Source of the DNA: Terriglobales bacterium
Lineage (GTDB): Bacteria > Acidobacteriota > Terriglobia > Terriglobales > Acidobacteriaceae
Reading direction: 5' to 3'
NCBI GenBank assembly: GCA_035651655.1
Contig: DASRFG010000023.1
Location: 124,001-188,000, forward strand
DNA length: 64,000 nt
The notes below the pieces were generated by a model. The model did not search any database and was not told the DNA's origin. It worked only from the letters and a program-made list of their open reading frames with translations. How positions within the stretch are numbered: position 1 is the stretch's first letter; every line of letters starts with the position of its first letter. The position numbers and the translations under genes were made by a program. This document shows, piece after piece, positions 7,466-36,269 of this stretch.

Positions 7466-7670
7466 ACTCCTGTCGGGCCCTAAGGCGCGGGTCGTACCCC
7501 TCAGCTTGAAATTCCCCTAAGTACCTTTGATGCAAACGGTTAGACGAAGACTCATCGCCGCCGCGAGGAGATTCTGGCATCCAGCTCTAGGGGTGTCAAG
7601 CAAACCTCTGGTCCCTTGGACAGCAAAGGCTTGACCTCCTCCTAAGCTCAAGGATAGCGTAAATCTCCTC

Positions 7671-19028: not shown

Positions 19029-19298
19029 TCAAATTTTTGTGCCGATGGGACTCTGACCGTCGTCCGCCTTCTTGACTGCCGCTTCAGCCGCCTGAAAACC
19101 AATTTTCGTGTGGTTGCCGTCGCAAAAAGGTTTCGTTACCGATCCGCCGCAACGGCACAACGAGAACGCCAGCTTGCCGTCTTTCAACTTGGTGCTGAGG
19201 TCGTACGCATTCCCATCGGCATCCACTAGTTCAATGGAACCAAGTGGCGCCTCTACGCGGTACGGGCCATTTTTACGGACAACGATTTTTACCTCTGG
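19029..19298 (-). CDS. CDGSH iron-sulfur domain protein
   Basis: An 89-residue protein started at ATG 19296-19298, which has GGAGGG four bases upstream; 22 earlier in-frame codons are discarded for that reason. The motif CRCGGSVTKPFCDGNH is the CDGSH signature (C-x-C-x2-S-x3-P-x-C-D-G-x-H), which binds a 2Fe-2S cluster with three Cys and one His. An N-terminal β-strand region (KIVVRKNGPYRV) is common in bacterial members. It probably acts as a soluble redox or cluster-transfer protein. It follows the debranching enzyme gene on the same strand's downstream side. Confidence 0.92.
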   Translation of the reverse strand, partial: PEVKIVVRKNGPYRVEAPLGSIELVDADGNAYDLSTKLKDGKLAFSLCRCGGSVTKPFCDGNHTKIGFQAAEAAVKKADDGQSPIGTKI

Positions 19299-19364
19299 CA
19301 TTTTCCCTCCGGGATGATAACGGAGATAGTGTAGTTGAATCGGTAGCCAGCGCAAACTCCGCAA

Positions 19365-21578
19365 CTACTTTTTGAAGGCAACGTTCACCAACAGCTTCTC
19401 ACCGGTGATCCCCACAACGTTGCAGAAAGTGCGGTCGTGACTGCGAGTAAAGTCCAAGCTGACCCTGCTCTTTCCCACACGCAGGTGACGAATGTGGAGC
19501 TGGCCGAGCCACTCCGGAAGCTCGGGGTTGATGATGTTCAATTCCCTTCGCTGAGCACTGGGCCGAATGCCCAGAACAGAACTTAAAATCAGAAACATTG
19601 CCCCCGACGCCCACGCCTGCGGCGAACAGGAAACCGGGTAATGGACAGGCTGGTCATTTTCCCCGCGCTGCACACCGCAAAAGAGTTCGGGCAGACGATA
19701 GTCCCGGAAATATAAGGCAGCCTCGAACAATGACGTCAAAGCACGGAGCGCAGGCCCGCGATATTCATTGAGTGCCATGCCATGGGCAATTAGAGAATTG
19801 TCGTGCGGCCAGACCGATCCGCGATGATAGCTGAGGGGATTAAAGACGCGCTCCGCGCGGGACAAGGTCCGCCAGCCCCACCCGGTGAACATGTCGTCAC
19901 ACATCAGCCGCTCTACCACCACTCGCATCCGTTCGCGGGAGAGAGCGCGAGTAAAAAGCAGGTGGCCGACGTTGGAGGAGACCACGTCAACCTGCTTTTT
20001 TTGAGAATCCAGTGCCATCGCATAATAGTTCTGCCCAGACATCCAGAAGGCTTTATCCAATCGCTTGGACATCTCAGTCGCTTCGCGTTTCAGGCGGTCG
20101 GCCCGCGAGGTGTCCCCGAAACTGCGCAGCAAAGATGCCATGCGGTACTTCGCGTCATAAACATAGCCTTGGACTTCAACCAGTGCGATGGGCGGTTTGG
20201 CAATGGACCCGTCCGCTCGCATGTTAGCGTCCCAGGAATCTTTCCATCCCTGGTTGAACAAGCCTTTGGGTGAGCGACGCTGATACTCGATAAGACCGTC
20301 GCCATCGAGATCGCCGTAACGATCAATCCAGTCGAGAGCACGATAGGCTGCCGGGAGCAACTCACGCACCAGCTCGTCGTCAGCAGTCCAGTTGTAGGTT
20401 TCGCTTAATAGGATGAGAAACAGCGGGGTGGCATCCACCGAGCCGTAATACGGACCGAAAGGCATCTCGCCGGAACGGGTCAGCTCTCCGTTGCGAAACT
20501 CGTGCAAAATTTTGCCGGGTTCCTCGTCGCGCCAGTCGTTGTACTCTGTGCCCTGATAGCGTGCCAAGACCCGCAACGTATCGGTTGCAAGTTGAGGATT
20601 TAAGGAAAGTGCCTGATAGGAAGAAATGATCGAGTCGCGTCCGAAGATGGTGGCAAACCAGGGTATGCCGGCGGCTATGGTGCGCTGGTCGCGATCGGGA
20701 ACCTGCAGCGCGTGAAAATCCCCGATGGCCGTGTTGAGCATTGCATCGAACACGCCCTGGCTGCTTTCAAAGTGGGTTGAGTCGTTTCGCCACTCGGTGT
20801 ATTTCTGCCGCCGCAAACGGAGCTTGGCGGCGTGATCGTAGCCGGTGGCACGACTCTCTCGGCCCTCTACAAACGGAGTTACAGTCACTTCCAAACTGAA
20901 TTTCTTCAAGGGCGGGAGTTTCAGCTCCCAACGCGCGATGTGCTCGTCCAGGTCATCCGGGGCGGGACTCATCTCCACGACCGAATAACGAAGAATCCCG
21001 TCTCGCCCGCGATAATAAAACGACAACCGGTTTCCATGAATGATAGGTTGAAAGTACTGACCTTCGGCCTCGCGTGCCACACCTCGCACCTGGAAGACAT
21101 CCACAAAGTCAGCGTCGTAGGTCAGTTCAACCAGCAGATCAACCGAGGAAAGATTAAAGTTCTCAAACGTAAGGCGATCAAAAAAGACTTCGTTGGCTAA
21201 CAACTGCTCACGGCGAACGTGGATAGTGTTTTCCGGGAGGTCGAATGAATTGCGCAGAGTAATGTTGGCCGTGGTCAATTCGATTTGTGAGTTGTAATTG
21301 TTTTCTGTACCGGACGAGAGCATCAGCGCACGATGGCCGCCGATCCTTAACTCAAGGTGACTGAGGAAGCGCGTGTCATCATGAAAGAAGCCGACGTCGG
21401 GCGCGCCCGAGGGCGCAATATCACCGGCAACGGTAGTGGAAAGAAAAGTTTTCCCATCAATCAGGGTGAGGTTATTGACTTTCCGCGGCTCAAAACTTTG
21501 GAACGCACGCCGCCGTGCCAGGTGCGGAGATGGAATCTCGACCAGCGCATCCTCGGGAATGGAGAGCCGCGTGCTCAT
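19365..21578 (-). CDS. glycogen debranching enzyme-like glycosidase (GDE N-terminal domain plus (α/α)6 catalytic domain)
   Basis: A 737-residue protein. Residues about 38-240 form the N-terminal β-sandwich typical of bacterial amylo-α-1,6-glucosidase-like proteins (NLTLIDGKTFLSTTVAGD, FFHDDTRFLSHLEL). The rest is an (α/α)6 barrel with GIPWFATIFGRDSIIS, DLDGDGLIEYQ, NQGWKDSWD and HRGSVWPHDNSLI, where the acidic residues match the family's active site. There is no signal peptide, so it is cytoplasmic. It overlaps the upstream GT4 gene by ATGA. This pairing suggests it trims or rearranges a glucan or glycoside made by the neighbouring transferases, rather than storage glycogen alone. Confidence 0.9.
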   Translation of the reverse strand: MSTRLSIPEDALVEIPSPHLARRRAFQSFEPRKVNNLTLIDGKTFLSTTVAGDIAPSGAPDVGFFHDDTRFLSHLELRIGGHRALMLSSGTENNYNSQIELTTANITLRNSFDLPENTIHVRREQLLANEVFFDRLTFENFNLSSVDLLVELTYDADFVDVFQVRGVAREAEGQYFQPIIHGNRLSFYYRGRDGILRYSVVEMSPAPDDLDEHIARWELKLPPLKKFSLEVTVTPFVEGRESRATGYDHAAKLRLRRQKYTEWRNDSTHFESSQGVFDAMLNTAIGDFHALQVPDRDQRTIAAGIPWFATIFGRDSIISSYQALSLNPQLATDTLRVLARYQGTEYNDWRDEEPGKILHEFRNGELTRSGEMPFGPYYGSVDATPLFLILLSETYNWTADDELVRELLPAAYRALDWIDRYGDLDGDGLIEYQRRSPKGLFNQGWKDSWDANMRADGSIAKPPIALVEVQGYVYDAKYRMASLLRSFGDTSRADRLKREATEMSKRLDKAFWMSGQNYYAMALDSQKKQVDVVSSNVGHLLFTRALSRERMRVVVERLMCDDMFTGWGWRTLSRAERVFNPLSYHRGSVWPHDNSLIAHGMALNEYRGPALRALTSLFEAALYFRDYRLPELFCGVQRGENDQPVHYPVSCSPQAWASGAMFLILSSVLGIRPSAQRRELNIINPELPEWLGQLHIRHLRVGKSRVSLDFTRSHDRTFCNVVGITGEKLLVNVAFKK

Positions 21579-22657
21579 GCTATGGCGCGGTTTTTAACAG
21601 GTATTTCGGTGACCTCGGCGGCAGCGGGAGCTTTCGTCCCCGCAAGGATCTGATCATACAGCTTGGCGTATTGCGAGACCATGCGCTCCAGCGAAAACCG
21701 CTCGCTTACATATTGCCTGATAGTAGCCGGCGGGATGGTACCTTCGATATTCCTTGCCCGCTCTGTCATTTCCTGCACAGAATGGCAAATGTAGCCACTG
21801 ATTCCATCCAGGACTACTTCTTCCACCGCACCTCCGGGCAGCGCCAGAACCGGCGTTCCGCAGGCCATCGCTTCGAGCATCACTAAGCCAAATGGTTCAT
21901 CCCATTGGATCGGAAACAGCATCGCCAGGGAGTTCCCTAACAGTTCGTTCTTGGTCGCGATGTCGGCTGAGCCAATGAATTCAACCGATTTACCGTCAAT
22001 ATGCGGCTTTATCTCCTGCTCGAAATAGTCACGGAACAGGGGCTGGACCTCGCCCGCGATTTTCAACGGTATACCGGCCTGCTTTGCTGCCTGAATCGCC
22101 AAATGAGTTCCCTTGATGGGGGCGATGCGTCCGAGAAAGCTCAAATACGGTTGCTTCTTGCGACGCAGTTCATAGAGGGACATATCAATTCCGTGATGGA
22201 TGGTCTGCATGTGCGGCATCTTTTCCATTCGCCGCTGGAAATCACTGATGGTCACGAAATTCACTTCAGGGAAGTATTGATAGAACGCACTCAACCCTTC
22301 AAGGTGAGGATGGTGAATCGTGTAGACAAAACGGGGATCTACAAAACGGGAGCATGCCAGCCCCGGTACATTGTTGATGTGAATTAGGTCGCAGCTTTGC
22401 GCGGCGTCGCGCACTGCCCAGGAGGTATGGTTTACGTCTTTCAAATTGTCGTAAATCTCACCCTTAATCGGCCACTCCCCTTTGGGGTACAACGCCCGGA
22501 CCTCCACATCCAGAGTTGATTCGCCATTGGCATACACCACTACATCCATTCCTAATTCTTTGAGGCCGGCAGCTAATTCGGCGACGAACAATTCTGTTCC
22601 CCCATACACCTTTGGCGGAACACTGATGAACGGCGGCGCGATGATGGCTATTCTCAC
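21575..22657 (-). CDS. glycosyltransferase family 4 protein
   Basis: A 360-residue GT-B glycosyltransferase. The N-terminus MRIAIIAPPFISVPPKVYGG and GGTELFVAELAAGL match GT4 enzymes. The donor-site region contains FLGRIAPIKGTHLAIQA and DEPFGLVMLEAMACGTPVLA with the EPFG-x7-E pattern (here EPFGLVMLE). It is cytoplasmic, possibly membrane-associated. It is translationally coupled to the debranching-type enzyme by a 4-base overlap. The 168-base gap to the preceding gene could hold a separate promoter. Donor and acceptor are unknown. Confidence 0.93.
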   Translation of the reverse strand: MRIAIIAPPFISVPPKVYGGTELFVAELAAGLKELGMDVVVYANGESTLDVEVRALYPKGEWPIKGEIYDNLKDVNHTSWAVRDAAQSCDLIHINNVPGLACSRFVDPRFVYTIHHPHLEGLSAFYQYFPEVNFVTISDFQRRMEKMPHMQTIHHGIDMSLYELRRKKQPYLSFLGRIAPIKGTHLAIQAAKQAGIPLKIAGEVQPLFRDYFEQEIKPHIDGKSVEFIGSADIATKNELLGNSLAMLFPIQWDEPFGLVMLEAMACGTPVLALPGGAVEEVVLDGISGYICHSVQEMTERARNIEGTIPPATIRQYVSERFSLERMVSQYAKLYDQILAGTKAPAAAEVTEIPVKNRAIA

Positions 22658-22825
22658 TGGACACTCCTGTGTTGTTTAATTAACTTACGCTGCGGAAGAA
22701 GGCAAGGGAGAGCTTTCGCCCCTACTAGTAGAGATGCTTAGCAGAAGAAAGGAGTTTCCATGGGCAGCCAGGAATATCCTACTAGTTCACACCTTATAAT
22801 TCTGTAGCTCCTGAACAAGAGCAAC

Positions 22826-23941
22826 TCACGCAACCAACGCGTCTTCACGAACTCTGGCCTGAGCTACTGCGGGAGTGGCCTTCACCGCAGAAATAAACTG
22901 CTCAAACTGTTGCGCTCGTTTTTCTGAGGTGTGCTCGGCAAGCACGCGTTCTTGTCCAGCTCTACCGATCGCACGCAGTTCGTCTTCCGGCGCGGAAAGG
23001 AAGCGCACCACGTCCTCACCACCTGTGGGCAGAAGAATTTCTCTTCCTGGAGCGAAGAAGGTATCAAGTCCTGGCCAATTGTCGGAGACAATCGTGGCGC
23101 CGCAGGCGGCTGCTTCGAACAGGCGGACCGATGGTGAATAGCCCGCCTGCACCATGGCGCGCCGTGTGACGTTGAGGGTGAGCCGAGATGAACTATAGAA
23201 ACGCGGATGCCAGCGCGGATTCAAGTGATTAATTCTTCGCGCGTTTGATGGCCAGCGCAAGTTACGTGGATACTGTGGACCTGCAATAAGAAATCTCGAG
23301 TTTGGCGACCTGCGGGCCGGATCACAGAAAAACTGCTCGATTTTAGGCTGTCGGTCGGGGGCATATGTACCCATGTAGCTCATGTCGCACTCGTATCGCT
23401 TATGCACCGGCCATGAGTGATACTGTTGCGGATCCACGGAACAGTACAGCGGAACGGCTCGTGAAGCGCCGAACCTGTGCTGCAGTTCCCGCAACATAGG
23501 GCCGCCTGTAAAACTGAAGTAAAGATCAAGACCGGGTATCTGCTCTTTCAGCAAGTAATCGGTATGGCCGGAGGCGCGCAGCTGGTCGAGAGTTACGGGC
23601 GTGTCAATGTCATAGAAAGTCTTGACCGGCGCTGCTGAATCCAGCATCTCGTCAACGGCATTGATGCCCTCGGGAAAATACGACCCCACCATGGCAACGT
23701 CACAATCGCGCAGCTGCCCGCGGACTTCGGGGACGATACTGCCCCAATCGTCGAAAATTCGGACCGAGCAGAACTCTGGCTCCGGCAGGTCGCGGTTGGA
23801 GGCGTACCACTCCAGGTCTTTCTCGAAAAATACGACGCGGTGGCCGCGAGCGTGCAATGCCTTCGCCAGAGCGCGAAAGGTTGTGGCGTGACCATTCCCC
23901 CATGCCGAGGTTATTGATAAGCCGAAGATTACGATTTTCAT
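22826..23941 (-). CDS. CgeB-like glycosyltransferase (copy 3 in transcription order)
   Basis: A 371-residue GT-B fold protein resembling the CgeB/YkvP group. It starts MKIVIFGLSITSAWGNGHAT, has CDMSYMGTYAPDRQ at the start of the second domain, and ends with the donor-site pattern SVRLFEAAACGATIVSDNWPGL. The first of three neighbouring genes with this plan, they share the N-terminal FGxSxTS and the xxxFEAAxCG motifs, pointing to tandem duplication and divergence. It follows the next copy by 17 bases. In Bacillus, CgeB is linked to spore surface glycosylation; that role cannot be transferred here directly. Confidence 0.88.
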   Translation of the reverse strand: MKIVIFGLSITSAWGNGHATTFRALAKALHARGHRVVFFEKDLEWYASNRDLPEPEFCSVRIFDDWGSIVPEVRGQLRDCDVAMVGSYFPEGINAVDEMLDSAAPVKTFYDIDTPVTLDQLRASGHTDYLLKEQIPGLDLYFSFTGGPMLRELQHRFGASRAVPLYCSVDPQQYHSWPVHKRYECDMSYMGTYAPDRQPKIEQFFCDPARRSPNSRFLIAGPQYPRNLRWPSNARRINHLNPRWHPRFYSSSRLTLNVTRRAMVQAGYSPSVRLFEAAACGATIVSDNWPGLDTFFAPGREILLPTGGEDVVRFLSAPEDELRAIGRAGQERVLAEHTSEKRAQQFEQFISAVKATPAVAQARVREDALVA

Positions 23942-23958
23942 CTTCTTGCCTTCCCTGC

Positions 23959-25059
23959 TCAGGCCACCAGAGCTTGTGATTTATCTTCAGTTGTGGCGTA
24001 GTTCCTGGCCAAGAGCGAGTCCACCTCTCGCGCACGCAGCGAGTAGGTGTGATCGCGCAAGGCATGGGCGCGCATAGCTTTGCCTATGGCTTTCGCCTTT
24101 TTCTCATCCACACTGCGCAGCCAGTTGACGATCTCTGAGGCAGAGGCAGCGGGCAATATCTCGCACCCTGGCTCGAAAAACTGTTCGATTCCCGACCACG
24201 CGTCAGTGATAAGACATGCGCCGGCCCCGGCGGCCTCGAATACGCGGGTTGGGGGAGAGAATCCGACGTTGGCCATGGAATCTCGGTTGATGTTAAGCAC
24301 CATTCGGGCAGAGCAATTCACCCGGTTGTGATCGCCCGTGCCCACGTGGCCAATCCAGCGCACGTTCGAAGGCATGCGCTTTCCAGCCCAGCCTTCTCCG
24401 CCGAGCACGAATTGCATCTCCGGAGCCAGCTCGGCGGCCCGCAAAAAGAACTCTTCCATCCGCCGCTCGCGATCGGGCAGGCGATTGCCTACAAAAACCA
24501 GATCACAGCCCAAATCCGGATCGGGCGGCACAGGATGGTGGGTTTCAGGGTCGAGCGCGTTGTAGATGGGGTGACAGTTTCGCGCCCCGAATCTCAAATA
24601 GTGCTGCACGACCGGCTGTCCGCCGCCATAAGTAAAAATAAAGTCATACTGCGGTATGAGCTCTCGAAAGGGATCTTCGTGGTGAGTCTCGATTCGCGCC
24701 AATGTGGCGGGTGCATCCACGTCCCAAAAGACAACCCGGGTAGCGGCGGAGCGCAATCGAAGCACCTCGCGTTCCAGAAATTCGTCATCCGCACCGACCC
24801 CGCTGTGCTTGATTACCAGGTCGGAACCTGCGGCCTGAGCCAACATTCGGTCGAGGTCACCTGGCGTCTTGTAAATGATGACCTCGGCATAATTGATCTC
24901 GCCAGCATCGCGGTTCTTCTGGCGATCGTAGATATCCGGTTCAGCGAAAGTGATTTCGTGCCCGAGGGCGTTCAGGTTCTTGTAAATGCCGCGATAGTAC
25001 GTTGCGGCTCCGTTCCAGTAGCACGAAGTCAGGCTGGACCCGAAAACAAAGATCTTCAT
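23959..25059 (-). CDS. CgeB-like glycosyltransferase (copy 2)
   Basis: About 366 residues from ATG 25057-25059 (MKIFVFGSSLTS); this start overlaps the previous gene's stop as ATGA, which decides it over the GTG six codons upstream. It has the CgeB-like layout: an N-terminal Rossmann domain with YWNGAATYYRGIYKNL, then CDLVFVGNRLPDRERRMEEF, GEGWAGKRMPSNVRWIGHV and PTRVFEAAGAGACLITDAW in the donor site. It is closely similar in architecture to the genes on either side. It probably adds a different sugar in the same pathway. Confidence 0.88.
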   Translation of the reverse strand: MKIFVFGSSLTSCYWNGAATYYRGIYKNLNALGHEITFAEPDIYDRQKNRDAGEINYAEVIIYKTPGDLDRMLAQAAGSDLVIKHSGVGADDEFLEREVLRLRSAATRVVFWDVDAPATLARIETHHEDPFRELIPQYDFIFTYGGGQPVVQHYLRFGARNCHPIYNALDPETHHPVPPDPDLGCDLVFVGNRLPDRERRMEEFFLRAAELAPEMQFVLGGEGWAGKRMPSNVRWIGHVGTGDHNRVNCSARMVLNINRDSMANVGFSPPTRVFEAAGAGACLITDAWSGIEQFFEPGCEILPAASASEIVNWLRSVDEKKAKAIGKAMRAHALRDHTYSLRAREVDSLLARNYATTEDKSQALVA

Positions 25060-26174
25060 CGTCCGAGTTCCTCGCAAATATCCATCAGCTGGCTGGCGCG
25101 GTGTGCACAGGTGTGGCGCTGGCGAATTGTTTCCAAGCCATTCGCGGCTAGTTGCTGCCGCGCAGCATCGTCACGAAGCAGGCGGCCAAGCTCAGCCTGC
25201 ATTGCTTTCCCGTCGGTAGCGTAAATGTAGTCCTCACCCGGCCGGAAAAGGCGCTCGGTATCGGTCCATGGAGAGCACAGCAACGGGATACCGCACGCCA
25301 TGGCTTCGAACACACGAATGGTCGGGATACCACTCAGGCCGTTCGCATATTGGCGCCGGGGAACGTGCAACGTGATGCGACTCCGCCCGTAAACCTGCGG
25401 AGCGCACAGATTGGGGCAGTATCCACGAAATTCAATTCCGGCGGCTGCCAGCTTTGCACGCGCCTCCTGCGGATAACGGACGCCGTGGACCACAAACTTA
25501 CGGTCAGGCAGTGCCGCCGCCGGCCCGATCAGGAATTCCTGCAGTTCGCGGGTACGCTCTTCGTCACCCCAGTTCCCAATCCAGATTACATCCGCGTCTT
25601 TTTGGCCGACGATGGGTTGGAAATTGCTGATATCCGCGGCCTCGTGAAAGGTCCAGGTCCGCGCGACCCCGAATGCTTCGGAGTAGATGCGGCGTATGGC
25701 CTCGCCAAATGCCAGCACTCCATCGAAGAGGTGTATGCGAAAGCGAAGCATCTCTGCGGGGTTGCTGTAGGCGCGGTGGTGCGTGTCGTGCAGCAGGACG
25801 CGAAATCCAAGACGTTCCTTCATTGACAAAATCGTGTTAACCACTTCAGGTGGATTCCATTCATGTACCACGACAACATCCGAGCCTCGTAGCTCTTGGG
25901 TGGCAAATTCGCGGAAAGTTTCATTGTTCCGATAGAAGCGGATGTCGAGCTCGGGGAAAGTCTTCCAAAACTGTTGCAGCGCCGCGCCCGACTGCTCGCC
26001 TTCCTGCTGCATGAGATTTCCAACCGACCAGGAGCCGCTCTGTTCGTAGCAGCGCACGTTGTGCCCGGACCGCATCAACTGCCGCACCAGACCACGCAGA
26101 AAATGAGCGTTCCCATGGTTCCAGTCGGAAATCCAGGAGTGCGCAAAAAAACGCAATTCGAGGCGGGTACTCAC
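25056..26174 (-). CDS. CgeB-like glycosyltransferase (copy 1)
   Basis: A 372-residue GT-B protein of the same group, with LRFFAHSWISDWNHGNAHFL at the start and DVIWIGNWGDEERTRELQEF opening the second domain. The donor-site segment is TIRVFEAMACGIPLLCSPW. The motif GNAHF corresponds to GNGHA and NGAAT in the two following copies. It overlaps both neighbours by 4 bases, so the three copies and the upstream GT4 gene are translated as one chain. The N-terminus diverges most from the other two copies. Confidence 0.88.
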   Translation of the reverse strand: MSTRLELRFFAHSWISDWNHGNAHFLRGLVRQLMRSGHNVRCYEQSGSWSVGNLMQQEGEQSGAALQQFWKTFPELDIRFYRNNETFREFATQELRGSDVVVVHEWNPPEVVNTILSMKERLGFRVLLHDTHHRAYSNPAEMLRFRIHLFDGVLAFGEAIRRIYSEAFGVARTWTFHEAADISNFQPIVGQKDADVIWIGNWGDEERTRELQEFLIGPAAALPDRKFVVHGVRYPQEARAKLAAAGIEFRGYCPNLCAPQVYGRSRITLHVPRRQYANGLSGIPTIRVFEAMACGIPLLCSPWTDTERLFRPGEDYIYATDGKAMQAELGRLLRDDAARQQLAANGLETIRQRHTCAHRASQLMDICEELGR

Positions 26175-27280
26175 GCTGCGGCGACCTGCGCGCCTACGAG
26201 GTTTTCATACAGACCGAGATACTGATCCACCATGCGAGTTGCGGTATAGCGCTCGCGCGCTCTCTGATACGCCTTGCGTCCATACGATTTGCACAACTCA
26301 GGGTCGGAGGCGAGTTGGCGAATAGCCTGCGAAAGAGCATCGGCATCATTACTCTGGAAGAACAGAGCGGCGTCATCCCAAAGCTCTCTAAATGTGGGGA
26401 TGTCATTCGCGATAAGAGCACAGCCCGAAAGCGCAGCTTCCAGCGGTGCGAGTCCGAAAGGCTCGTAACGTGAGGTCGCAGCATAAATGGACGAACGGGC
26501 GTACAGCAATCGCAACTCTCTTTCGGATTGCTGCCCTTTGATCTCCAGACCCGGCCTGGCCCTTAGCCCGACATTGCCTCTGAATACTTCATCCGGATGC
26601 TCTTCCGAGCCGACAATACAGACTTGCGCCGGGTGCACGCGTTGGGTGAGTAATGCGGTATTTTTAGCGCTGTCCCACAGGCGACCGACCGACAGAAGGG
26701 AGGATGGTTTTTTGTCCATGTAGGACGCGAATAACTTTGGATCGCGGCCGTTGTAAATCACCATCGACCGCCGTGGCAGCGGGAAATTCTTGGCCAGTGA
26801 ATCCAACATCCAGCGTGATGGCGCTACAACCGCGGTGGCATCCTGCAACCCGCGGCTCACGGTAGCTCGATACCAGCGAACCCAGGCCGAATCCGGGGGA
26901 GGCGCTCCATCAACCGCGATCCACCAACTGAGAACATCACTGTGCGCGACGACCACTCGCGGGACTTCCACTTTCAAACTTCCATAGTAGTACTGGCCCA
27001 GGTGGAGCAGGTCAGGCTTGACCTCTTTGATTATGTCGGTCAGGTAGTCCGCAGAATCCTCGAGGTCGCGTTCCGCGTCGTGCATCCATTCCAAGCGGAA
27101 GCCGGTGGGGCGATAGTCGAGCGCCGGAAAAGCGCTCATCCAGGCGGATTGCTCCTCACTGGGTATTTGACCGAAGCTGACCAGAGTTACCTGGATGCCA
27201 CGACCCAACAGGCCCCTGACCAATTCGCGAGTGTAAGTCCAGACGCCGCCCAAAGTGTCGGCGGTGACTAAGACGCGCAT
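26171..27280 (-). CDS. glycosyltransferase family 4 protein
   Basis: A 369-residue GT4 enzyme starting MRVLVTADTLGGVWTYTREL, with LSVGRLWDSAKNTALL and SRYEPFGLAPLEAALSGCAL containing the EPFG-x4-E donor motif. The N-terminal GGVWTYTRELVRGL is typical of GT4 acceptor domains. It overlaps the radical SAM gene by 13 bases and the following CgeB-like gene by 4, so it belongs to the same translationally coupled chain. It is soluble or peripheral at the cytoplasmic membrane. Sugar specificity cannot be read. Confidence 0.93.
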   Translation of the reverse strand: MRVLVTADTLGGVWTYTRELVRGLLGRGIQVTLVSFGQIPSEEQSAWMSAFPALDYRPTGFRLEWMHDAERDLEDSADYLTDIIKEVKPDLLHLGQYYYGSLKVEVPRVVVAHSDVLSWWIAVDGAPPPDSAWVRWYRATVSRGLQDATAVVAPSRWMLDSLAKNFPLPRRSMVIYNGRDPKLFASYMDKKPSSLLSVGRLWDSAKNTALLTQRVHPAQVCIVGSEEHPDEVFRGNVGLRARPGLEIKGQQSERELRLLYARSSIYAATSRYEPFGLAPLEAALSGCALIANDIPTFRELWDDAALFFQSNDADALSQAIRQLASDPELCKSYGRKAYQRARERYTATRMVDQYLGLYENLVGAQVAAA

Positions 27281-28554
27281 TCCAGTTCCTCGAGCGGAGC
27301 CGGCTTCTGCTCCTGTATATCGCTGTAACCTTTATCGCGGAATGCCGTGGTGTAGTACTGGTGGGCGCGCTCCCATGCCTTGTCATCCGGCAGGCCAAAC
27401 ATCTGCTGGTACAAGGGGGTGCCTGGGAAGGGATACATCGGCACCGGCTCGCTCACCCAAACATCATGGGCCTTGAGGTGCTCCTGAAATTTACGAAGAT
27501 CTGCGCGCTCATCGTGCTCGGTGAGGATCAGGTTGGCTTGCACCCAGGGAATTCGCTTGCGCGCATAAATCAGCAGCTCGGAAAGACGTTCGGTCGAAAG
27601 CCGGCAATTCTTGTTCAACTGGTCGCGACCAGCATCGGTGATGGACTCGATGCCGCATTCCATTGAGATGCAGTGCGCCCTCCCCAACAAGTCGAGGGTT
27701 TCTTCGTTCCAAAGATCAATGCGCGTCTGCAAGCCTATGCTGACGTTTCGTTCGGCAATTCCCTCCAGCAGCTTACAAACGTTCTTGCCAACTCCGAAAA
27801 TCTCATCAATAAAATAGATGTAGTCCACACCGCGCGTAATAACGCGATCTACCTCCGCCAGCACGGCTTCAACATCGCGCTCGCGAAACTTATTGCGGAA
27901 CAGAGTCTTATTGCAGAAAGTGCAAGCCCAGGGACAGCCGCGCGCGAATTCGAGCTCAGCCCCGTGGCCTGAGCCGTGAAACACATGATGGCGATGCCGG
28001 TGGGACTCCACCTTGTAGTTATGGAACTCAAGTGCGCCCAGGCCTTTCATGTCCGCCACGCCCAAGGTTGCGCTTACGTGTTCTCCGGCGTGGTCGCGCC
28101 AGCAGCAGCCCTCGATCTGGGACCACGGTTTGGAAGCCAATTCGGCGATGGTGTAATCGGGCTCTCCCCGCAGAGCAACATCACACTGCAATTTGCGCAG
28201 AGCGGCGCTGGGAGTGGCGGAGGTGTGAGGACCAATGGCCACCTTCACCGATCTTTCGCCGAGAGCCGCGAACCAGGCCTTGGGAACACGCACTTCGGGC
28301 GGTGGGCAGCGCCAGAACAGATAGGAAGGAGCAGTGGGTATGACTAAAAAGTCTGGGTCAAAACTGTCTACTCTCCGTTTAGCTTCTTCCACACTGAAGT
28401 TCTCCAGCTGCGCATCAATCAGCAAGGCCTCGTGGCCGGCCTCGCGCACTTTGTCATAGCTGAAAAGCAACTCAAGAGGATAGTGGGGCTCCTGGCATCC
28501 GAAATAGATCGAACCGGTGAAGCTCCAGTTGGGATTCACAAGCGCGAATTTCAC
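27268..28554 (-). CDS. B12-binding domain radical SAM protein
   Basis: A 428-residue protein with an N-terminal cobalamin-binding-type Rossmann domain (residues 1-140: MKFALVNPNWSF, EALLIDAQLENFS, VIPTAPSYLFW) and then a radical SAM domain. The cluster motif is Cys207-x3-Cys211-x2-Cys214 in RGCPWACTFCNKTLFR, followed by YFIDEIFGVGK. It probably uses SAM and cobalamin for a methylation or carbon-skeleton reaction on a sugar or a glycolipid. From memory, not checked, a family of B12 radical SAM proteins occurs in a conserved multi-gene glycan cluster of Rhizobiales ('rhizo-twelve'), and the present neighbours resemble it. It overlaps both adjacent genes. Confidence 0.92.
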   Translation of the reverse strand: MKFALVNPNWSFTGSIYFGCQEPHYPLELLFSYDKVREAGHEALLIDAQLENFSVEEAKRRVDSFDPDFLVIPTAPSYLFWRCPPPEVRVPKAWFAALGERSVKVAIGPHTSATPSAALRKLQCDVALRGEPDYTIAELASKPWSQIEGCCWRDHAGEHVSATLGVADMKGLGALEFHNYKVESHRHRHHVFHGSGHGAELEFARGCPWACTFCNKTLFRNKFRERDVEAVLAEVDRVITRGVDYIYFIDEIFGVGKNVCKLLEGIAERNVSIGLQTRIDLWNEETLDLLGRAHCISMECGIESITDAGRDQLNKNCRLSTERLSELLIYARKRIPWVQANLILTEHDERADLRKFQEHLKAHDVWVSEPVPMYPFPGTPLYQQMFGLPDDKAWERAHQYYTTAFRDKGYSDIQEQKPAPLEELECAS

Positions 28555-29657
28555 GCCGCCACCTCGGGGACGTGCTCCAGCGAGGTTCCCGGCAGACGCT
28601 CGGCCACCGCCGCAGGGGTGAAGAGCTCACGATTTCGCCTCCACCACTCGTACATCGCTTCCAGTGTTTCAGGAAGACTGATCTGCGGTTTCCACCCCGT
28701 ATCGCGACGCAACTTGCTGAAGTCGGTTACATACACCAGTTGATCGCCTGGCCGCATGGGAGAAAGCTGATACTGGAGAGTACGTCCCGTCAGTCGCCTG
28801 ATTTCGGTGATCAACTCCAAGAGGGACGCGGTGTTTCCCTGTCCACCGCCGACGTTGTACACCTGACCTGCTGTGTTCGCCCGGTGCTCACGTGCTGCTT
28901 CAAACGCACGCAGCAAATCGTCAACGCAAAGAATGTCGCGTACCTGCCGACCGTCGCCGTAGATGTAGACCGGGCTGCCGCTCAGCGCGGAATAGAGGAA
29001 ATGTGCCACCCAGCCCTGGTCTTCATTGCCAAACTGGTGCGGACCGGCGATGCAAGACATGCGGAATACAACAGTGGGAATTTTAAAAATCCGCGCATAG
29101 TCGTGCACGTACTGGTCAGCCGCTCCTTTCGAGCAGCCGTAAGGGGAGTGGAAATCGAGGGGCTGTGATTCGGGTACGCCCCAAACGTCCGCATACCCAT
29201 AACGGGTGGCGCTGGCGATCAAGCGGTAAGAGTTGAGTTCGCCATAAACTTTGTTGGTGGAAGTGAACAACAGGAAGGGACGGCGATCACTCTTGCGAAT
29301 CGCCTCCAAGATATTGAAAGTACCTCCCATATTCACTTCGAAATCGGTACGAGGGTCGCTCACTGAGGTGGTGACCGCCACCTGTGCCGCAAAATGGTAG
29401 ATCTCTGTGGCGGAGCGAACCGCACGCTCTACCATGGCAGAGTTGCGCACATCGCCAATTGTGATCTGCAGCCGGCCCGACCGCCCGGCAATGCTCTGCA
29501 GCTCTGCAAGGTTATGCCGCACCCCCTGCCGAGAAAGATTGTCATAGATGTGGACTTTTGCGTCAGTATTTGCGAGCAGACACCGCGCCCAATTAGAACC
29601 TATGAAGCCAGCCCCACCGAATATCAGCACCGACCGGAATGATTCTGTTTTTTTCAT
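28551..29657 (-). CDS. NAD-dependent sugar epimerase (CDP-paratose 2-epimerase-like)
   Basis: An extended SDR of about 368 residues, from ATG 29655-29657 (MKKTESFRS); the frame is open 7 codons further to a GTG-like start. It has LIFGGAGFIGSNWARCL for NAD, TSTNKVYGEL, and SPYGCSKGAADQYVHDYA with catalytic Tyr and Lys. The segment CIAGPHQFGNEDQGWVAHF is characteristic of CDP-paratose/tyvelose 2-epimerases. It should act on a nucleotide-activated sugar in the cytoplasm. It overlaps the radical SAM gene by ATGA, suggesting supply of its substrate or of a donor for the CgeB-like transferases. The exact sugar is inference. Confidence 0.9.
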   Translation of the reverse strand: MKKTESFRSVLIFGGAGFIGSNWARCLLANTDAKVHIYDNLSRQGVRHNLAELQSIAGRSGRLQITIGDVRNSAMVERAVRSATEIYHFAAQVAVTTSVSDPRTDFEVNMGGTFNILEAIRKSDRRPFLLFTSTNKVYGELNSYRLIASATRYGYADVWGVPESQPLDFHSPYGCSKGAADQYVHDYARIFKIPTVVFRMSCIAGPHQFGNEDQGWVAHFLYSALSGSPVYIYGDGRQVRDILCVDDLLRAFEAAREHRANTAGQVYNVGGGQGNTASLLELITEIRRLTGRTLQYQLSPMRPGDQLVYVTDFSKLRRDTGWKPQISLPETLEAMYEWWRRNRELFTPAAVAERLPGTSLEHVPEVAA

Positions 29658-29717
29658 TTCGTTACTCGATAAATGCATTCGCCAATAAAGCGTGCTTGAG
29701 ATTTTCTATTGAAGAAT

Positions 29718-30839
29718 TCAGGCCGCCAGACCATATTGCGTAAGTTTTTCAACCGCCTCTGCCGCTCGATCCTCCGCGGTTTGCGAGCCCAACCAGCGCA
29801 CCAATTCTTGAATACCATCCGCAAAACGCACCTGCGGCTCATATCCGAGCAGCTTTCGAGCCGCAGAAATGTCCGCAAAGCAGTGACGAATATCTCCGCC
29901 ACGGTACTTTCCAGTAATCTCCGGACTCAAGTCGCTGCCCAACGCCCGAGCCAATTCGCAAGCTACGTCGCGGACTGTGATTGCCTCGCCCGAACCCACG
30001 TTCAGGGCTCTTCCGTTCGCATTTGCAAGTTCCATCGCCAGCAAGTTGGCCTGTACTACGTCGTAGACGCTTACGAAATCCCGCATTTGCAACCCATCTT
30101 CAAACACCAGCGGAGGATTTCCGTTCATCAGCCGCGAGGCGAAGATTGCAGCGACCCCGGTATATGGATTGGAGAGGGCCTGGCGGGAACCATAGATGTT
30201 GAAGTAGCGGAGGGCCACGACGGGCAGCTCATAGGTCCGCCCGAAAAGCAGTGCCATCTCCTCCTGATCTTTCTTCGAAAGCGCGTAGATGGAGGTAGCC
30301 TGCAGGGGCTTTGATTCGTCGGTGCCCACGGGCTTCAAAACGGAGCCACAGCGGGGGCAAAGGGCCTCCCAGGATTTTTGTTTGAGCTGAGCTGTTGGTC
30401 TAGGTGGAGGGGCCACCTCCCCGCAAGTGGAGCAAAGGTATTTACCTTCACCATAAATTGACATTGAAGATGCGACGATCAGTTTCTCTATTCGGCAGCG
30501 GGTATCAAGCAGCGCCTGAAGCAGATTGGCGGTGCCTTGCGTATTTGCGCCCATGTAATGGGCGATCTCGTACATGGACTGACCCACTCCGACGGCGGCG
30601 GCCAGGTGAAATATCACATCTACATTGCGGACTGCCTCGCGAACCTGGTCGGGGTCACGCATGTCGCCGTTAACAAATTCGATTTCAGAAGCCAAATATC
30701 CGGGACGCCCATCGGCATGAACCTGTGGCGTCAAATTGTCATAAACGCGGACCGTGTGCCCACGTTTTAACAAGGCATCAATGAGGTGCGATCCTAAAAA
30801 TCCGGCTCCACCGGTGACCAACACTCTCTTGTTATTCAT
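29718..30839 (-). CDS. NAD-dependent epimerase with zinc-ribbon insert (dTDP-L-rhamnose 4-epimerase-like)
   Basis: A 373-residue extended SDR with VLVTGGAGFLGSHLID and active-site Tyr185/Lys189 in YALSKKDQEEM. Between the catalytic Ser strand (SSMSIYGEG) and the Tyr lies an insert with two Cys pairs, CSTC (136-139) and CPRC (161-164), a zinc-ribbon-like module. The same insert position and the PVGTDESKPL sequence after it are, as I recall, known from dTDP-L-rhamnose 4-epimerases such as WbiB. A 4-epimerase making dTDP-6-deoxy-talose is therefore the best guess. It is followed by the other epimerase after 60 bases. Confidence 0.88.
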   Translation of the reverse strand: MNNKRVLVTGGAGFLGSHLIDALLKRGHTVRVYDNLTPQVHADGRPGYLASEIEFVNGDMRDPDQVREAVRNVDVIFHLAAAVGVGQSMYEIAHYMGANTQGTANLLQALLDTRCRIEKLIVASSMSIYGEGKYLCSTCGEVAPPPRPTAQLKQKSWEALCPRCGSVLKPVGTDESKPLQATSIYALSKKDQEEMALLFGRTYELPVVALRYFNIYGSRQALSNPYTGVAAIFASRLMNGNPPLVFEDGLQMRDFVSVYDVVQANLLAMELANANGRALNVGSGEAITVRDVACELARALGSDLSPEITGKYRGGDIRHCFADISAARKLLGYEPQVRFADGIQELVRWLGSQTAEDRAAEAVEKLTQYGLAA

Positions 30840-30931
30840 GTCCGCTTCAGATAAATGCGGAGAAAGATCTGGAGGCCCCTTTTGCCACCATGCTCCGCCG
30901 CATCAAGAGGTTGGATGGATAAGTACTTACC

Positions 30932-30949
30932 TGAGATGCCATCCGGAGG
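30932..30949. repeat. intergenic 18-nt direct repeat, copy 1
   Basis: TGAGATGCCATCCGGAGG lies in the 190-base gap between the GH-like gene and the epimerase gene. It differs in three of 18 positions from a copy at 32921-32938. Both sit in spacers of the same gene cluster and in the same orientation, so they could be a shared regulatory or REP-like element. Confidence 0.4.
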
Positions 30950-31029
30950 GCGACAGAGTCAGCCCTTCAAAGACGCTCAATGACGGCTCCTGGCCAGCGC
31001 TGACAACACTGTCTGGAACGTTTTGCGAG

Positions 31030-31971
31030 CTAGCGGGCAGCACTGAAATCTTTTGCAATAGGAAAGCCTAGCTCGCGGTGGTTATTTGCAGTTGTGGGAG
31101 CATAGCGGTCCACCGCCCACGCTGCAAAATCAGCAAAGTCTTGCGATTGCTTCGGCGGACTCGTGTAGTGAGGAACCATGCCCAAGTGTTCTGGTGTGAA
31201 ACAAAGAGTGAGAGTAGTCTCGAACTCATCCAATGCGTGCATCTGACGGTCGAACCAGATTTGCGCGTCAGGACGAAAAGAATCTGCCCAGCTGATCCCG
31301 GTTCTCAGATAACGAACCCCGAGCCGACGGAGCCATTGCACGCCCGTTTCCAAACGGTGATCCTGATAATGAAACCACTGGCAGATGCCCAGTCCTTGTG
31401 GAAAGTCGGACGCCGATATCTTGGGAGTACCGTCTTCCCGCAACAGTCCCATGTAATAGTGCCGATAATAGGAACTGCCTTCCGATTCTTTGTGGCGAGT
31501 GGTAGCGGTCCAGGTTGCGGGCAAATCAAAGAGGCTGTACCAATGAATCCGTTCGACCAAAGGAAGCAGGAGTTCGGCAGTTTTGTGCAGTCCAAATAGC
31601 TGCACTTCCTCAGCTCCGAAGGACGATGCGCCGGCTTCGGAAACCCACACCGGCTTGTCGGTCACCTGTCGAATTTCGTCAATCTTCTCCGGCCAGCTAT
31701 GAATGTCCCAGTGGTTCCAGTCGAGTGGAAAACCGTGGACCGCGACAATATCAACTTCCTTGAGCACGCCGTGCGAGGCCATCAGTTGCATGAAATTGGG
31801 ATCTATAGGAGAAATGCCACCCAACACGACCTTCAGGCTGGGATTAACGCCGCGAATCGCGCGGGCTGCAGTGATTGCCATTTCCGCAAACAATTTCCAG
31901 TCGGGATCTACTTTGAAGTCCCAATGGGAAAGATTGTTGGGTTCATTCCACAGCATCACGGCTTCAACCAT
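31030..31971 (-). CDS. clan-A glycosidase, apparently circularly permuted
   Basis: A 313-residue protein related to GH39/GH5-type TIM-barrel glycosidases. It begins at the acid/base motif WNEPN (Glu10), which in ordinary members lies in the middle of the barrel. It continues through LGGISPIDP, VDIVAVHGFPLDW and KPVWVSEAGASSFG (candidate nucleophile Glu112). After residue 190 comes ICQWFHYQDHRLETGVQWLR, then RYLRTGISWADSFRPD and DFADFAAWAVDRYAP. Those last strands normally form β1-β3 and precede NEP. A TGA lies six codons upstream of the ATG, so no N-terminal extension exists. GGAG precedes the ATG by 6 bases. It is probably a cytoplasmic hydrolase or transglycosidase acting on the cluster's glycan. 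Confidence 0.85.
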   Translation of the reverse strand: MVEAVMLWNEPNNLSHWDFKVDPDWKLFAEMAITAARAIRGVNPSLKVVLGGISPIDPNFMQLMASHGVLKEVDIVAVHGFPLDWNHWDIHSWPEKIDEIRQVTDKPVWVSEAGASSFGAEEVQLFGLHKTAELLLPLVERIHWYSLFDLPATWTATTRHKESEGSSYYRHYYMGLLREDGTPKISASDFPQGLGICQWFHYQDHRLETGVQWLRRLGVRYLRTGISWADSFRPDAQIWFDRQMHALDEFETTLTLCFTPEHLGMVPHYTSPPKQSQDFADFAAWAVDRYAPTTANNHRELGFPIAKDFSAAR

Positions 31972-32006
31972 TTCAAGCTCCGTCTTTCATTGTTGGCTGC
32001 GGGCGT

Positions 32007-32831
32007 CTACAGTGTGCCCGCTAGTTCAAGATCGAGAATGTATTGTCCATCTCGGACAGCGTTTCGCGGTGTGCAAAGCCATGTCTCTGCCTCAGGATGA
32101 GCCATGATTTGCAAGCCAGAACTGCGCAGCATTGCTTCAGCGGCCGGACGATTCGGCAGCCACCAGTTGGTAGGATCGTCGGCGTAGCTGTGCTCGATAA
32201 AATACATGCAGGGAAAATCCGGGCTCTCGAATATCTGCTTATTCCAGAAGTGGTAGTTCTTGTCCCACTGCTTTGCTGCTTCCGATCCTCTGATCATGGT
32301 CTGGAAGAGCAAGCTTCCGCGGACCTTCTTAATGACTTTATCCAGCGCGAAGAGTGGGTACCGCAGGTGATAAAACACACCCATGAACAACACGTAATCG
32401 AACTGACCGGAAATCTGGTCAACCTCATAGACCGAACGCTTCTCAAATTGAATGTCCAAACCCAGGGTTTGTGCGGCAAAACGAGCCTGGTTAAGGTAGC
32501 GATCGTCCACGTCAATTCCCAGCACCCGGTCGGCTCCTCGACGCTTCATCTCGATGGAGTAGAAGCCGCCATTACAGCCGATATCCAGTACCTCCGCGCC
32601 CCTGAGGTCATCAGGAATTGCGGACGCAATGTGTTTCCACTTGACCTGGGGGAAGTCTCCTAAAAAATGGTTGGGAGCGGTCGGAATGCCGTAAAGATCA
32701 AGGTTGTGGAACCATTCACCCAATTCATCAATCCGGTGGGCCAGCGCCTCTCGATTCAGGGAAGTAATCGCCGGTGCGGCTGGCATTCCAGGTTTGTGAT
32801 TTGTGGTCCCGGGCAGATTTGAGGTTGACAT
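32007..32831 (-). CDS. SAM-dependent methyltransferase, CmoB-like fold
   Basis: About 274 residues from ATG 32829-32831, with a GTG four codons upstream as alternative. The class I SAM motif reads VLDIGCNGGFYSIEM (near residues 81-95 of the longer form) followed by VLGIDVDDRYLNQA. Later segments FDYVLFMGVFYHLRYP, QTMIRGSE and FIEHSYADDPTNWWLPN match CmoB-type tRNA carboxymethyl/methyltransferases, but the rest of the CmoB N-terminus is absent. From memory, such 'Rta_06860-type' methyltransferases are found next to B12 radical SAM and epimerase genes. Methylation of a sugar in the cluster product is therefore likely. It is the first gene of the minus-strand cluster. Confidence 0.88.
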   Translation of the reverse strand: MSTSNLPGTTNHKPGMPAAPAITSLNREALAHRIDELGEWFHNLDLYGIPTAPNHFLGDFPQVKWKHIASAIPDDLRGAEVLDIGCNGGFYSIEMKRRGADRVLGIDVDDRYLNQARFAAQTLGLDIQFEKRSVYEVDQISGQFDYVLFMGVFYHLRYPLFALDKVIKKVRGSLLFQTMIRGSEAAKQWDKNYHFWNKQIFESPDFPCMYFIEHSYADDPTNWWLPNRPAAEAMLRSSGLQIMAHPEAETWLCTPRNAVRDGQYILDLELAGTL

Positions 32832-33582: not shown

Positions 33583-34986
33583 TCAGTTTTGGGAAGTGTA
33601 CTCTTTGAGTTTTCGGTACAGGGTAGTCTTACCGATGCCCAGGAGCTTGGCCGCCAGCAGCTTGTCGCCATTAAGCTGCTCGATGGCACTCAAGATGGTT
33701 TGCCTCTCCAACTCAGCAATGGGCAGAATCTTGCCATCGCCGGAGTCCCCCAGCTGTACGGGAGATTGGGCATTCTGCAGTGCGGTTGGCATATCTGCTA
33801 TGTGAAGCACAGGGCCTGAACTCATGGCGACTGCGCGCTCCAGGCAGTTCTCCAGCTCTCGAACATTGCCCGGCCAATCATACGAGAGCATGACCTTGAG
33901 GGCGTCATCGGAAAGAGTGCGCTGCACTCCCGTGCTGCGTGCCAGGCGATCCAAAAAATGGCTTGCCATTAAAGGAATGTCTTGCCGCCGCTCGCGCAGG
34001 GGAGGAATGCGCAGCGTGAGCACGTTCAGGCGAAAGTAGAGGTCACGCCGAAAGGTTCCCTGGGCGACGCCCTGCTCCAGGTCGCGGTTAGTAGCTGCAA
34101 GAATGCGAACATTGATAGGCATGCTTTTGGTGCTGCCCACCGCTCGAATTTCCTTTTCCTGGATCGCGCGCAGCAGTTTGGCCTGCAAGTCCACTGAAAG
34201 TTCGGCGATCTCGTCTAGAAACACTGTCCCGCTGTCGGCGATTGCCAGCAGCCCATCCTTGGAGCGGGCAGCGCCGGTAAATGCGCCGCGTACATATCCG
34301 AAGAGTTCGCTCTCGATCAGGGTGGGAACTAAAGAGCCACAGTCCACTGCAATGAAGGGACGGTCACGATAGGGTCCAGAAAAATGGATAGAGCGTGCCA
34401 CCAGCTCTTTCCCCGTGCCACTTTCTCCCAAGATGAGCACGGGATGGGTGCTGTGTGCCGCCTTGGAGATGATGCGAAACAACTTTTCCATCTCTGGCGA
34501 GCGGCCCACGATGTTGCCGAACCCCTGTTTGGACTTTGCTTTTTCCCGCAACATTCGGTTTTCCGTCTTAAGTTTTAGACTCCCGGTGATGCGCTCCAAC
34601 AGCAGCTGGAGTTCCTCCACACTGAAGGGCTTGGTTAGATAATCGTAAGCTCCATTCTTCATTGCTTGCACCGCCGATTGCACGGTGGCGTAGCCGGTGA
34701 TCATCACCGCAATAGCGTCGGGACGGTGTTCACGGGTGTACCGTAGCGCCTCAAGACCTCCGGCCCCGGGGAGCTTAAGGTCGAGGAACACCACATCAAC
34801 GGGTTGCGAATCCATCAGCCGATAAGCGTGTTCCGCGGAATCCGCGATCATCGTGTTGAATCCGAGTGACTGACCTACCTCTCGGCAAGCTTCACGAATG
34901 GAACGCTCGTCATCAACAATGAGCAGATTCAGAAAATTGGCCCCTTCCATCTGGGCGGTTGATCCCGCGGCTTCGGCTGTCAGCAT
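33583..34986 (-). CDS. NtrC-family sigma-54-dependent response regulator
   Basis: A 467-residue regulator. Receiver: LLIVDDERSIRE with phospho-acceptor Asp69 (VVFLDLKLPG) and Lys119. AAA+ domain: Walker A GESGTGKE (187-194), the sigma-54 contact loop GAFTGAA (234-240) and FLDEIAELSVDLQAKLL. The C-terminal Fis-type helix-turn-helix is AAKLLGIGKTTLYRKLKEY. It should activate sigma-54 promoters after phosphorylation by the kinase encoded just upstream, whose stop codon overlaps its start by 7 bases. No target promoter was located. Confidence 0.95.
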   Translation of the reverse strand: MLTAEAAGSTAQMEGANFLNLLIVDDERSIREACREVGQSLGFNTMIADSAEHAYRLMDSQPVDVVFLDLKLPGAGGLEALRYTREHRPDAIAVMITGYATVQSAVQAMKNGAYDYLTKPFSVEELQLLLERITGSLKLKTENRMLREKAKSKQGFGNIVGRSPEMEKLFRIISKAAHSTHPVLILGESGTGKELVARSIHFSGPYRDRPFIAVDCGSLVPTLIESELFGYVRGAFTGAARSKDGLLAIADSGTVFLDEIAELSVDLQAKLLRAIQEKEIRAVGSTKSMPINVRILAATNRDLEQGVAQGTFRRDLYFRLNVLTLRIPPLRERRQDIPLMASHFLDRLARSTGVQRTLSDDALKVMLSYDWPGNVRELENCLERAVAMSSGPVLHIADMPTALQNAQSPVQLGDSGDGKILPIAELERQTILSAIEQLNGDKLLAAKLLGIGKTTLYRKLKEYTSQN

Positions 34987-36236: not shown

Positions 36237-36269
36237 CACAATCTTCCAATCCTGTTGAGAGACTGGCAA

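Follow-up and report, generated by a model that had tools for sequence, protein, structure and literature searches.

A predicted circularly permuted PslG-like glycosidase in a conserved TIGR04290/TIGR04295 gene cluster of a Terriglobales bacterium

PslG of Pseudomonas aeruginosa, a retaining endo-beta-glucosidase of family GH39, is encoded inside a glycan synthesis cluster and is thus an example of a GH39 enzyme in this kind of setting (PMC11912335, available part). In mycobacteria, the cluster for methylmannose polysaccharide (MMP) combines a glycosyltransferase, a methyltransferase and one endo-hydrolase that regenerates primers, according to the available part of its description (PMC9883506). 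The neighbourhood of a TIGR04290 methyltransferase and a TIGR04295 radical SAM (S-adenosylmethionine) protein is itself not new, as both proteins are catalogued in NCBIfam. Here, we describe such a neighbourhood at positions 19029-32831 of the window, i.e., the whole stretch of 64,000 nucleotides analysed, which is part of contig 23 (DASRFG010000023.1) in the 39-contig genome GCA_035651655.1 of a Terriglobales bacterium. Its methyltransferase (MT) and radical SAM protein (rSAM) score over the NCBIfam cut-offs, and a further gene, GHcp, falls outside the NCBIfam families (no family matched at E 0.001). Sequence comparisons and a predicted structural model identify GHcp as a circular permutant with the strand order 4-5-6-7-8-1-2-3 and as a relative of the PslG-like retaining beta-glycosidases, whose activity it is predicted to share. 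PslG is the best-scoring solved relative of the rotated GHcp sequence. Both have the N-E-P acid/base motif and the strand-7 glutamate; in contrast to PslG, GHcp starts at a barrel strand, has a rotated order and is shorter (313 residues versus a PslG chain of 416). Like GHcp, the GH70 glucansucrases, MalS (GH13_19), the deacetylase domain of PgaB (CE4) and the jellyroll 1,3-1,4-beta-glucanase of Fibrobacter are natural circular permutants with unpermuted relatives, as described in the parts of the sources available. A literature search, mostly over sources short of their full texts, returned neither a permuted clan GH-A enzyme nor a takeover from a fused form. To our knowledge, none of the four permutants named belongs to clan GH-A. 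The first-pass annotation of the stretch had not noticed the permutation.

GHcp and its two parts are located as follows.

31030-31971, minus strand: GHcp, circularly permuted relative of clan GH-A (PslG/GH39-like) glycosidases
31402-31971, minus strand: GHcp residues 1-190, equivalent to ordinary strands 4 to 8, with predicted acid/base E10 (31942-31944) and nucleophile E112 (31636-31638)
31090-31401, minus strand: GHcp residues 191-294, equivalent to ordinary strands 1 to 3, at the C terminus

GHcp begins with the strand bearing the acid/base glutamate (WNEPNN), and ordinary strands 1-3 come last. Its best Pfam match enters the profile in the middle (residues 2-124 on positions 66-186 of 237). 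In a phmmer search of the PDB, the native order aligned with PslG over residues 3-184 (on 132-319, E 0.0024), and a separate, non-significant piece, residues 197-229, matched an earlier part of PslG (25-57). After rotation, GHcp aligned to PslG in one piece (8-288 on 26-319, E 6.3e-6). When all rotations were scored against the fused homologue described below, the maximum of 463 was reached at 186-193, compared to 331 for the native order and to a mean of 38 and a maximum of 55 for 200 shuffles; an unpermuted control scored best unrotated. The AlphaFold2 model of GHcp (pLDDT 86.8, pTM 0.86) has eight strands (residues 2-8, 47-53, 75-80, 108-113, 142-145, 195-197, 221-227 and 251-257), and the idea of a half barrel was rejected on this ground. 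In the top Foldseek rows for the model, glycosidases were aligned either over ~160-200 columns at a root-mean-square deviation (rmsd) of 3-6 or over ~280-340 columns at 16-17. PslG was missing from the best 50 Foldseek and VIA rows, which is expected of order-dependent aligners and is evidence in neither direction.

The start codon lies at the same residue, seven before WNEPNN, in all 45 complete GHcp copies (L033-L115; 44 distinct sequences; loci are designated L and genomes G); the copy in L041 is cut by a contig end and was not counted. Upstream of this start, the open frame measures at most 30 codons in 30 of the 45 copies and is therefore too short to hold three strands; in the other 15, it extends over 32 to 285 codons, and the start is the start codon nearest the expected place, as chosen by a script. 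The shared start and the short upstream frames led us to reject a truncated or frameshifted gene. In a tree of rotated permuted domains and fused domains, the 40 permuted rows all lie on the same side of one branch (support 99/92), which is compatible with a single origin of the permutant.

E10 and E112 are invariant in 40/40 aligned permuted rows, and after rotation they are placed at the strands matching 4 and 7, the acid/base and nucleophile sites of clan GH-A. The predicted model has the (beta/alpha)8 barrel of this clan; since its strands do not run in the canonical order 1 to 8, GHcp is filed as a permuted relative and not as a regular clan member. GHcp is called GH39-like only, because its partial match to the GH39 model PF01229 (15.5 bits) stays below the cut-off of 26. 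The sole Pfam model over its cut-off is Glyco_hydro_cc (22.1 versus 21 bits). GHcp opens with a barrel strand and thus leaves no space for a signal peptide, and the enzyme is predicted to be cytosolic.

An unpermuted relative exists in the same pathway. In 10 loci, the frame of the neighbouring gene EPI2, which encodes a CDP-tyvelose 2-epimerase-like protein (CDP, cytidine diphosphate), runs upstream into a glycoside hydrolase (GH) domain of ordinary strand order or a remnant of it. This fused domain is 28-39% identical to GHcp where BLAST aligns the two; PslG is its best-scoring solved relative, too, and its model matches PslG over nearly the whole length (Z 25.3, rmsd 3.1, 289 residues). Both catalytic glutamates of the fused domain are kept in 10/10 genomes without GHcp (G300, G306, G310, G380, G445, G771, G789, G849, G913 and G916) and lost in 6/6 genomes with GHcp (G297, G298, G299, G301, G302 and G309), a complementarity that gives a Fisher value of 1.2e-4 over 16 genomes that are not independent (G310, G789 and G916 are near copies). 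Two loci, L088 (Skermanella) and L093 (Mangrovicella), which belong to two of these six genomes, have a dead fused domain and no GHcp in the locus; a search of both genomes then found GHcp elsewhere. L099 (G303), in which half of the fused domain is missing, and a second GH match in G1029, which does not adjoin EPI2, were left out of the count. In L099, at ~7626-8488, the epimerase/dehydratase gene EPI1 runs straight into the second half of the fused domain, by a deletion or an assembly error.

Since the fused domain is intact only without GHcp and dead with it, one active glycosidase appears to be needed. The permutant may have arisen once, by tandem duplication and truncation of a GH domain that stayed fused to EPI2 elsewhere, and the fused domain would decay or be lost where the permutant is present. 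The non-catalytic fused copies, still encoded in 6 genomes after loss of their catalytic residues, indicate that non-catalytic roles may exist, and GHcp might likewise be a sugar-binding or scaffolding barrel with a permutation due to neutral drift. However, the invariance of E10 and E112 and the restriction of dead fused copies to genomes with permuted GHcp make this very improbable.

Twelve minus-strand genes were found at 19029-32831, of which nine (22826-32831) form a conserved core. The genes besides GHcp are the following.

32007-32831, minus strand: MT, class I SAM methyltransferase, TIGR04290 (366 bits, cut-off 300); ATG at 32831, in-frame GTG at 32843
29718-30839, minus strand: EPI1, nucleoside diphosphate-sugar epimerase/dehydratase of the SDR type, with a C-x2-C ... 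C-x2-C insert (C136, C139, C161 and C164; 30348-30434)
28551-29678, minus strand: EPI2, CDP-tyvelose 2-epimerase-like SDR protein, with an N-terminal ordinary-order GH domain in other genomes
27268-28554, minus strand: rSAM, B12-binding/radical SAM protein, TIGR04295, with Cx3Cx2C at C207, C211 and C214 (27913-27936)
26171-27280, minus strand: GT4a, GT4-type glycosyltransferase (Pfam)
25056-26174, minus strand: CgeB1, Glyco_trans_1_2 glycosyltransferase (132 bits)
23959-25059, minus strand: CgeB2, Glyco_trans_1_2 glycosyltransferase (126 bits); ATG at 25059, alternative TTG at 25077
22826-23941, minus strand: CgeB3, Glyco_trans_1_2 glycosyltransferase (140 bits)
21575-22657, minus strand: GT4b, GT4-type glycosyltransferase, local accessory outside the core
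19365-21578, minus strand: GDE, debranching-like glycosidase (GDE_N_bis, MGH1-like, GDE_C), local accessory outside the core
19029-19364, minus strand: CDGSH iron-sulphur protein, local accessory outside the core

This inventory confirms the observations of the first-pass annotation in part, and the interpretation given there is partly supported. About a dozen minus-strand genes joined by overlaps of 4-13 bases had been described; twelve genes are present, but only 5 of the 11 junctions overlap (by 4, 13, 4, 4 and 4 bases, with CgeB2 started from ATG 25059), and the remaining gaps measure 0 to 190 bases. Started at TTG 25077, CgeB2 would overlap by 22 bases. The family calls mostly hold in NCBIfam and Pfam (TIGR04290 methyltransferase, TIGR04295 radical SAM protein, two SDR enzymes, two GT4 and three CgeB-type transferases, the latter all over the PF13524 cut-off of 25 bits). 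MT does not score as a CmoB tRNA carboxymethyltransferase: the CmoB models give it 67.5 bits (cut-off 209) and 65.8 bits (cut-off 275). Two glycosidases indeed lie within the interval, but GHcp is the only one in the conserved set. Upstream of the cluster, at 33583-36269, the window encodes an NtrC-type response regulator and a histidine kinase; regulators of this kind immediately precede MT in L048, L050 and L058, and in L036 they do so with one gene in between.

The conservation of the cluster was examined in a scan of named genomes with an rSAM alignment, which retained 80 of at least 379 relatives, so that the counts refer to these loci and are no full survey (L035 and L061 lie on the same contig, as do L032 and L096). 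By record titles, the 80 loci belong mostly to Acidobacteriota and furthermore to Alphaproteobacteria, Deltaproteobacteria/Myxococcota, Cyanobacteria, one Rhodanobacteraceae and one Verrucomicrobia; among the matches listed, the nearest named relatives of the window rSAM are Terriglobia/Acidobacteriales. For the gene order, 33 of the 80 loci were excluded because they lacked 7 kb of flanking sequence on each side, as were 9 of the other 47, which have neither GT4a nor CgeB. In the 38 well-flanked loci left, the order rSAM-GT4a-CgeB1-2-3 is kept in 36; EPI1 is present in 38, EPI2 in 36, MT in 30 and GHcp in 29, compared to 6 loci each for GT4b and GDE and 3 for CDGSH. The single twelve-gene set proposed at first therefore does not stand; its nine-gene core does, and GT4b, GDE and CDGSH are local additions. 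In the 9 loci without GT4a or CgeB, EPI2 adjoins rSAM in 9/9 and MT is present in 5/9. Among four relatives from the window's own phylum, all nine core genes (MT, GHcp, EPI1, EPI2, rSAM, GT4a and CgeB1-3) were found in three, some on other strands or apart, and the last three genes of the window in none; the contig of the fourth, L032, breaks off within the locus, and MT and GHcp lie on another contig of the same genome.

The rSAM gene is rare. It was found over the curated cut-off in 5/297 genomes of the window's phylum (compared to 293/297 with any match at E 0.001), in 11/249 genomes of the order of Methylobacterium tarhaniae and in 2/194 genomes of the phylum of L091 (titled as a cyanobacterium in its record), each count including the centre genome known beforehand as positive. 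GHcp follows this pattern: it occurs in 5/5 rSAM genomes of the window's phylum versus 1/292 others (Fisher 3.2e-10) and in 10/11 rSAM genomes of the Methylobacterium order versus 9/238 others (Fisher 4.7e-12), although these tests treat as independent genomes that are not. Hence, the genes co-occur more often than expected by chance, and their order is shared with other genomes. The expectation from the first-pass annotation that related glycan clusters exist in Rhizobiales is likewise supported by the conserved order, the co-occurrence of GHcp and rSAM and matches on Sinorhizobium, Bradyrhizobium, Azospirillum and Roseomonas plasmids. The literature search returned no paper under the name "rhizo-twelve" used there; it also returned nothing on the two TIGR numbers or on cgeB together with radical SAM and glycosyltransferase.

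A second module, consisting of a fourth CgeB and a nucleotidyltransferase, is joined to MT and GHcp in other genomes. In the window genome, this pair of CgeB and sugar nucleotidyltransferase lies apart from the cluster on contig 13 (L227:8472-10471; 57% identity, E 2.8e-84). No match to the rSAM protein was found among 50,697 phage records (IMG/VR lay outside the search), and phage cargo was rejected.

Plasmids carry the glycosidase as well. Matches were found in 147 of 72,556 plasmid records, 97 of them at 60-80% identity; among the matches listed, the remaining ones are mostly the fused form. Sinorhizobium, Rhizobium, Roseomonas, Azospirillum and Paracoccus lead these matches, and the gene is annotated as beta-xylosidase, glycosyl hydrolase or hypothetical protein. 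In Sinorhizobium meliloti 1021, the permuted gene lies on pSymB at 257009-257905 and is 99.6% identical to that of strain Rm41, in which GHcp has the same start and catalytic residues and the cluster has no rSAM. Because the distribution is sporadic and plasmid-borne, the cluster has probably spread between phyla by horizontal transfer.

EPI2 has the CDP-tyvelose 2-epimerases as its nearest solved relatives (E 7.6e-80 and 1.2e-76; next family 2.5e-36) and retains the motifs TNKVYG and YxxxK. Of the CDP-binding residues Trp207, Trp210 and Phe211 given for CDP-tyvelose 2-epimerase in the available part of PMC7851689, it matches two of three (W, H, F). In EPI1, the four-cysteine, zinc-ribbon-like insert splits the matches to known epimerases; its CxxC pairs are missing in L099, which is cyanobacterial. 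rSAM matches TIGR04295 with 640 bits over its entire length (1-422 of 422; curated cut-off 400), and its Cx3Cx2C cysteines are invariant in 5/5 rows. The rSAM gene overlaps the EPI2 gene by 4 bases in the window and, as described above, the two are paired in nine minimal loci devoid of the transferases, which suggests that both act on one sugar. Clusters that are otherwise similar do without rSAM (L190, L193, L194, L195 and L196), and its step therefore looks like a dispensable decoration.

From the gene content and order, the permutation (sequence and predicted model), the catalytic residues and the complementarity, we infer, with moderate confidence, that the nine core genes encode a cytosolic route to a methylated hetero-oligosaccharide, in which one beta-glycosidase step by the permuted enzyme would be required. 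EPI1 and EPI2 would shape a C2-epimerised sugar nucleotide, rSAM would C-methylate the EPI2 sugar, GT4a and CgeB1-3 would build a short chain, and the TIGR04290 methyltransferase would O-methylate it. The required intracellular cut may be made by GHcp, either in trimming and maturation or in recycling of primers as in the mycobacterial MMP pathway. The likeness to the latter would be one of function only, and neither it nor the comparison with the PslG cluster is meant as family membership. MmpH acts as an alpha-endomannosidase, and no counterparts of the epimerases and the radical SAM protein appear in the abstract of PMC9883506.

Several observations weigh against this pathway. The B12-binding domain of rSAM reaches 18.6 bits, below the Pfam cut-off of 32.1, and the best PDB match is AprD4, from a family that NCBIfam names as a diol dehydratase and not as a methylase, with the methyltransferase TsrM in second place; C-methylation is proposed from family membership, and the literature search on this point returned nothing relevant. 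The whole-length matches of the native-order GHcp model in VIA are generic barrels (Z up to 13.8), which fit a permutation but do not by themselves indicate a glycosidase. As for the takeover, the tree forces only at least two separate losses of catalytic residues, with long-branch warnings, and together with the kinship of the 16 genomes this leaves few independent events. Furthermore, the catalytic positions of G298 and G301 were read from weak alignments (39% and 35% identity), and in part of the genome searches only the best first-look candidates per genome were scored. G313 (L108) has an rSAM cluster with neither form of the glycosidase, and the locus L091 has no MT, although the fused-GH clusters L173, L196 and L218-L222 do have one.

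Neither a flippase nor a polymerase is named by NCBIfam or Pfam among the twelve proteins, as the first-pass annotation had stated. Both might be encoded elsewhere, with the cluster providing the glycan portion of an envelope polymer or glycolipid (lipopolysaccharide, exopolysaccharide, spore or cyst coat) and the glycosidase clearing mislocalised product, a role that PslG-type hydrolases may have. PslG itself belongs to an exopolysaccharide cluster (PMC11912335, available part), and a pyruvyl transferase and an FrhB-type gene adjoin the cluster in Sinorhizobium and Paracoccus. In L055 and L057 (~8.9-17.5 kb), a lone EPI2-rSAM pair adjoins division and cell wall genes resembling mraZ-rsmH-ftsL-ftsI-murE, as named by reading the sequences. 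However, an enzyme that begins at a barrel strand would meet a cytosolic product only, and no flippase-, polymerase- or exporter-like gene was seen among the recurring extra gene clusters read, of which five were also scanned with NCBIfam (c24-c31 lay outside); we therefore regard an envelope product as possible but rather unlikely. The NCBIfam scan of the five gave names below cut-off or none. One extra gene cluster, c21, is a respiratory oxidase subunit by reading of its sequence.

In Alphaproteobacteria, the cytosolic pathway may have a further component. Ino1, an inositol-3-phosphate synthase of the mycothiol type (TIGR03450, 550 bits, below the cut-off of 638), accompanies GHcp in 17/18 alphaproteobacterial loci and a histidine phosphatase in 16/18, and in Sinorhizobium and Paracoccus the neighbouring genes include dehydrogenases with weak, below-cut-off likeness to IolG and IolM. 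It is imaginable that the chain is built on myo-inositol, with Ino1 producing inositol phosphate, the phosphatase releasing inositol from it, GT4a acting as MshA does in mycothiol synthesis, and CgeB and methyltransferases extending and capping the chain. On the other hand, GT4a is no closer to MshA than to other GT4 enzymes, and Ino1 was found in 0/9 alphaproteobacterial loci with fused GH in view (in the genome of one of these, L088, the GHcp locus L199 does have Ino1), in 0/80 other loci examined (which include L223, an alphaproteobacterial stretch that lacks the cluster, and L227, a second stretch of the window genome) and in 0/6 cluster-bearing genomes of the window's phylum, the window genome included, compared to 25/297 genomes of the phylum overall. 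An inositol acceptor is therefore not general, nor would it be made by this Ino1 in the window; inositol as the general acceptor was rejected, and we consider an inositol-based chain improbable. Next to Ino1, L228:10365-12113 encodes a protein of 582 residues without a match in NCBIfam (E 1e-15) or Pfam (E 1e-5); it has matches in 21/120 loci. A more inclusive reading combines these elements with the cytosolic pathway into a previously unrecognised route to an oligosaccharide that is C- and O-methylated, stays inside the cell and, in Alphaproteobacteria, is linked to inositol; the route would renew itself by means of the permuted PslG-like glycosidase, which would have replaced an EPI2-fused ancestor that died at least twice; in this full form, we consider it doubtful.

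In sum, GHcp adds a candidate to the few natural circular permutants among carbohydrate enzymes, of which the parts of the literature available showed the four named at the outset. With an unpermuted counterpart in this pathway and a visible takeover of function, it illustrates the exchange of one catalyst for another within a pathway, and it offers a natural experiment on the points at which a barrel may be opened. As S. meliloti 1021 carries the permuted gene, the product of the TIGR04290/TIGR04295 clusters becomes testable in a genetically easy host, including by deletion.

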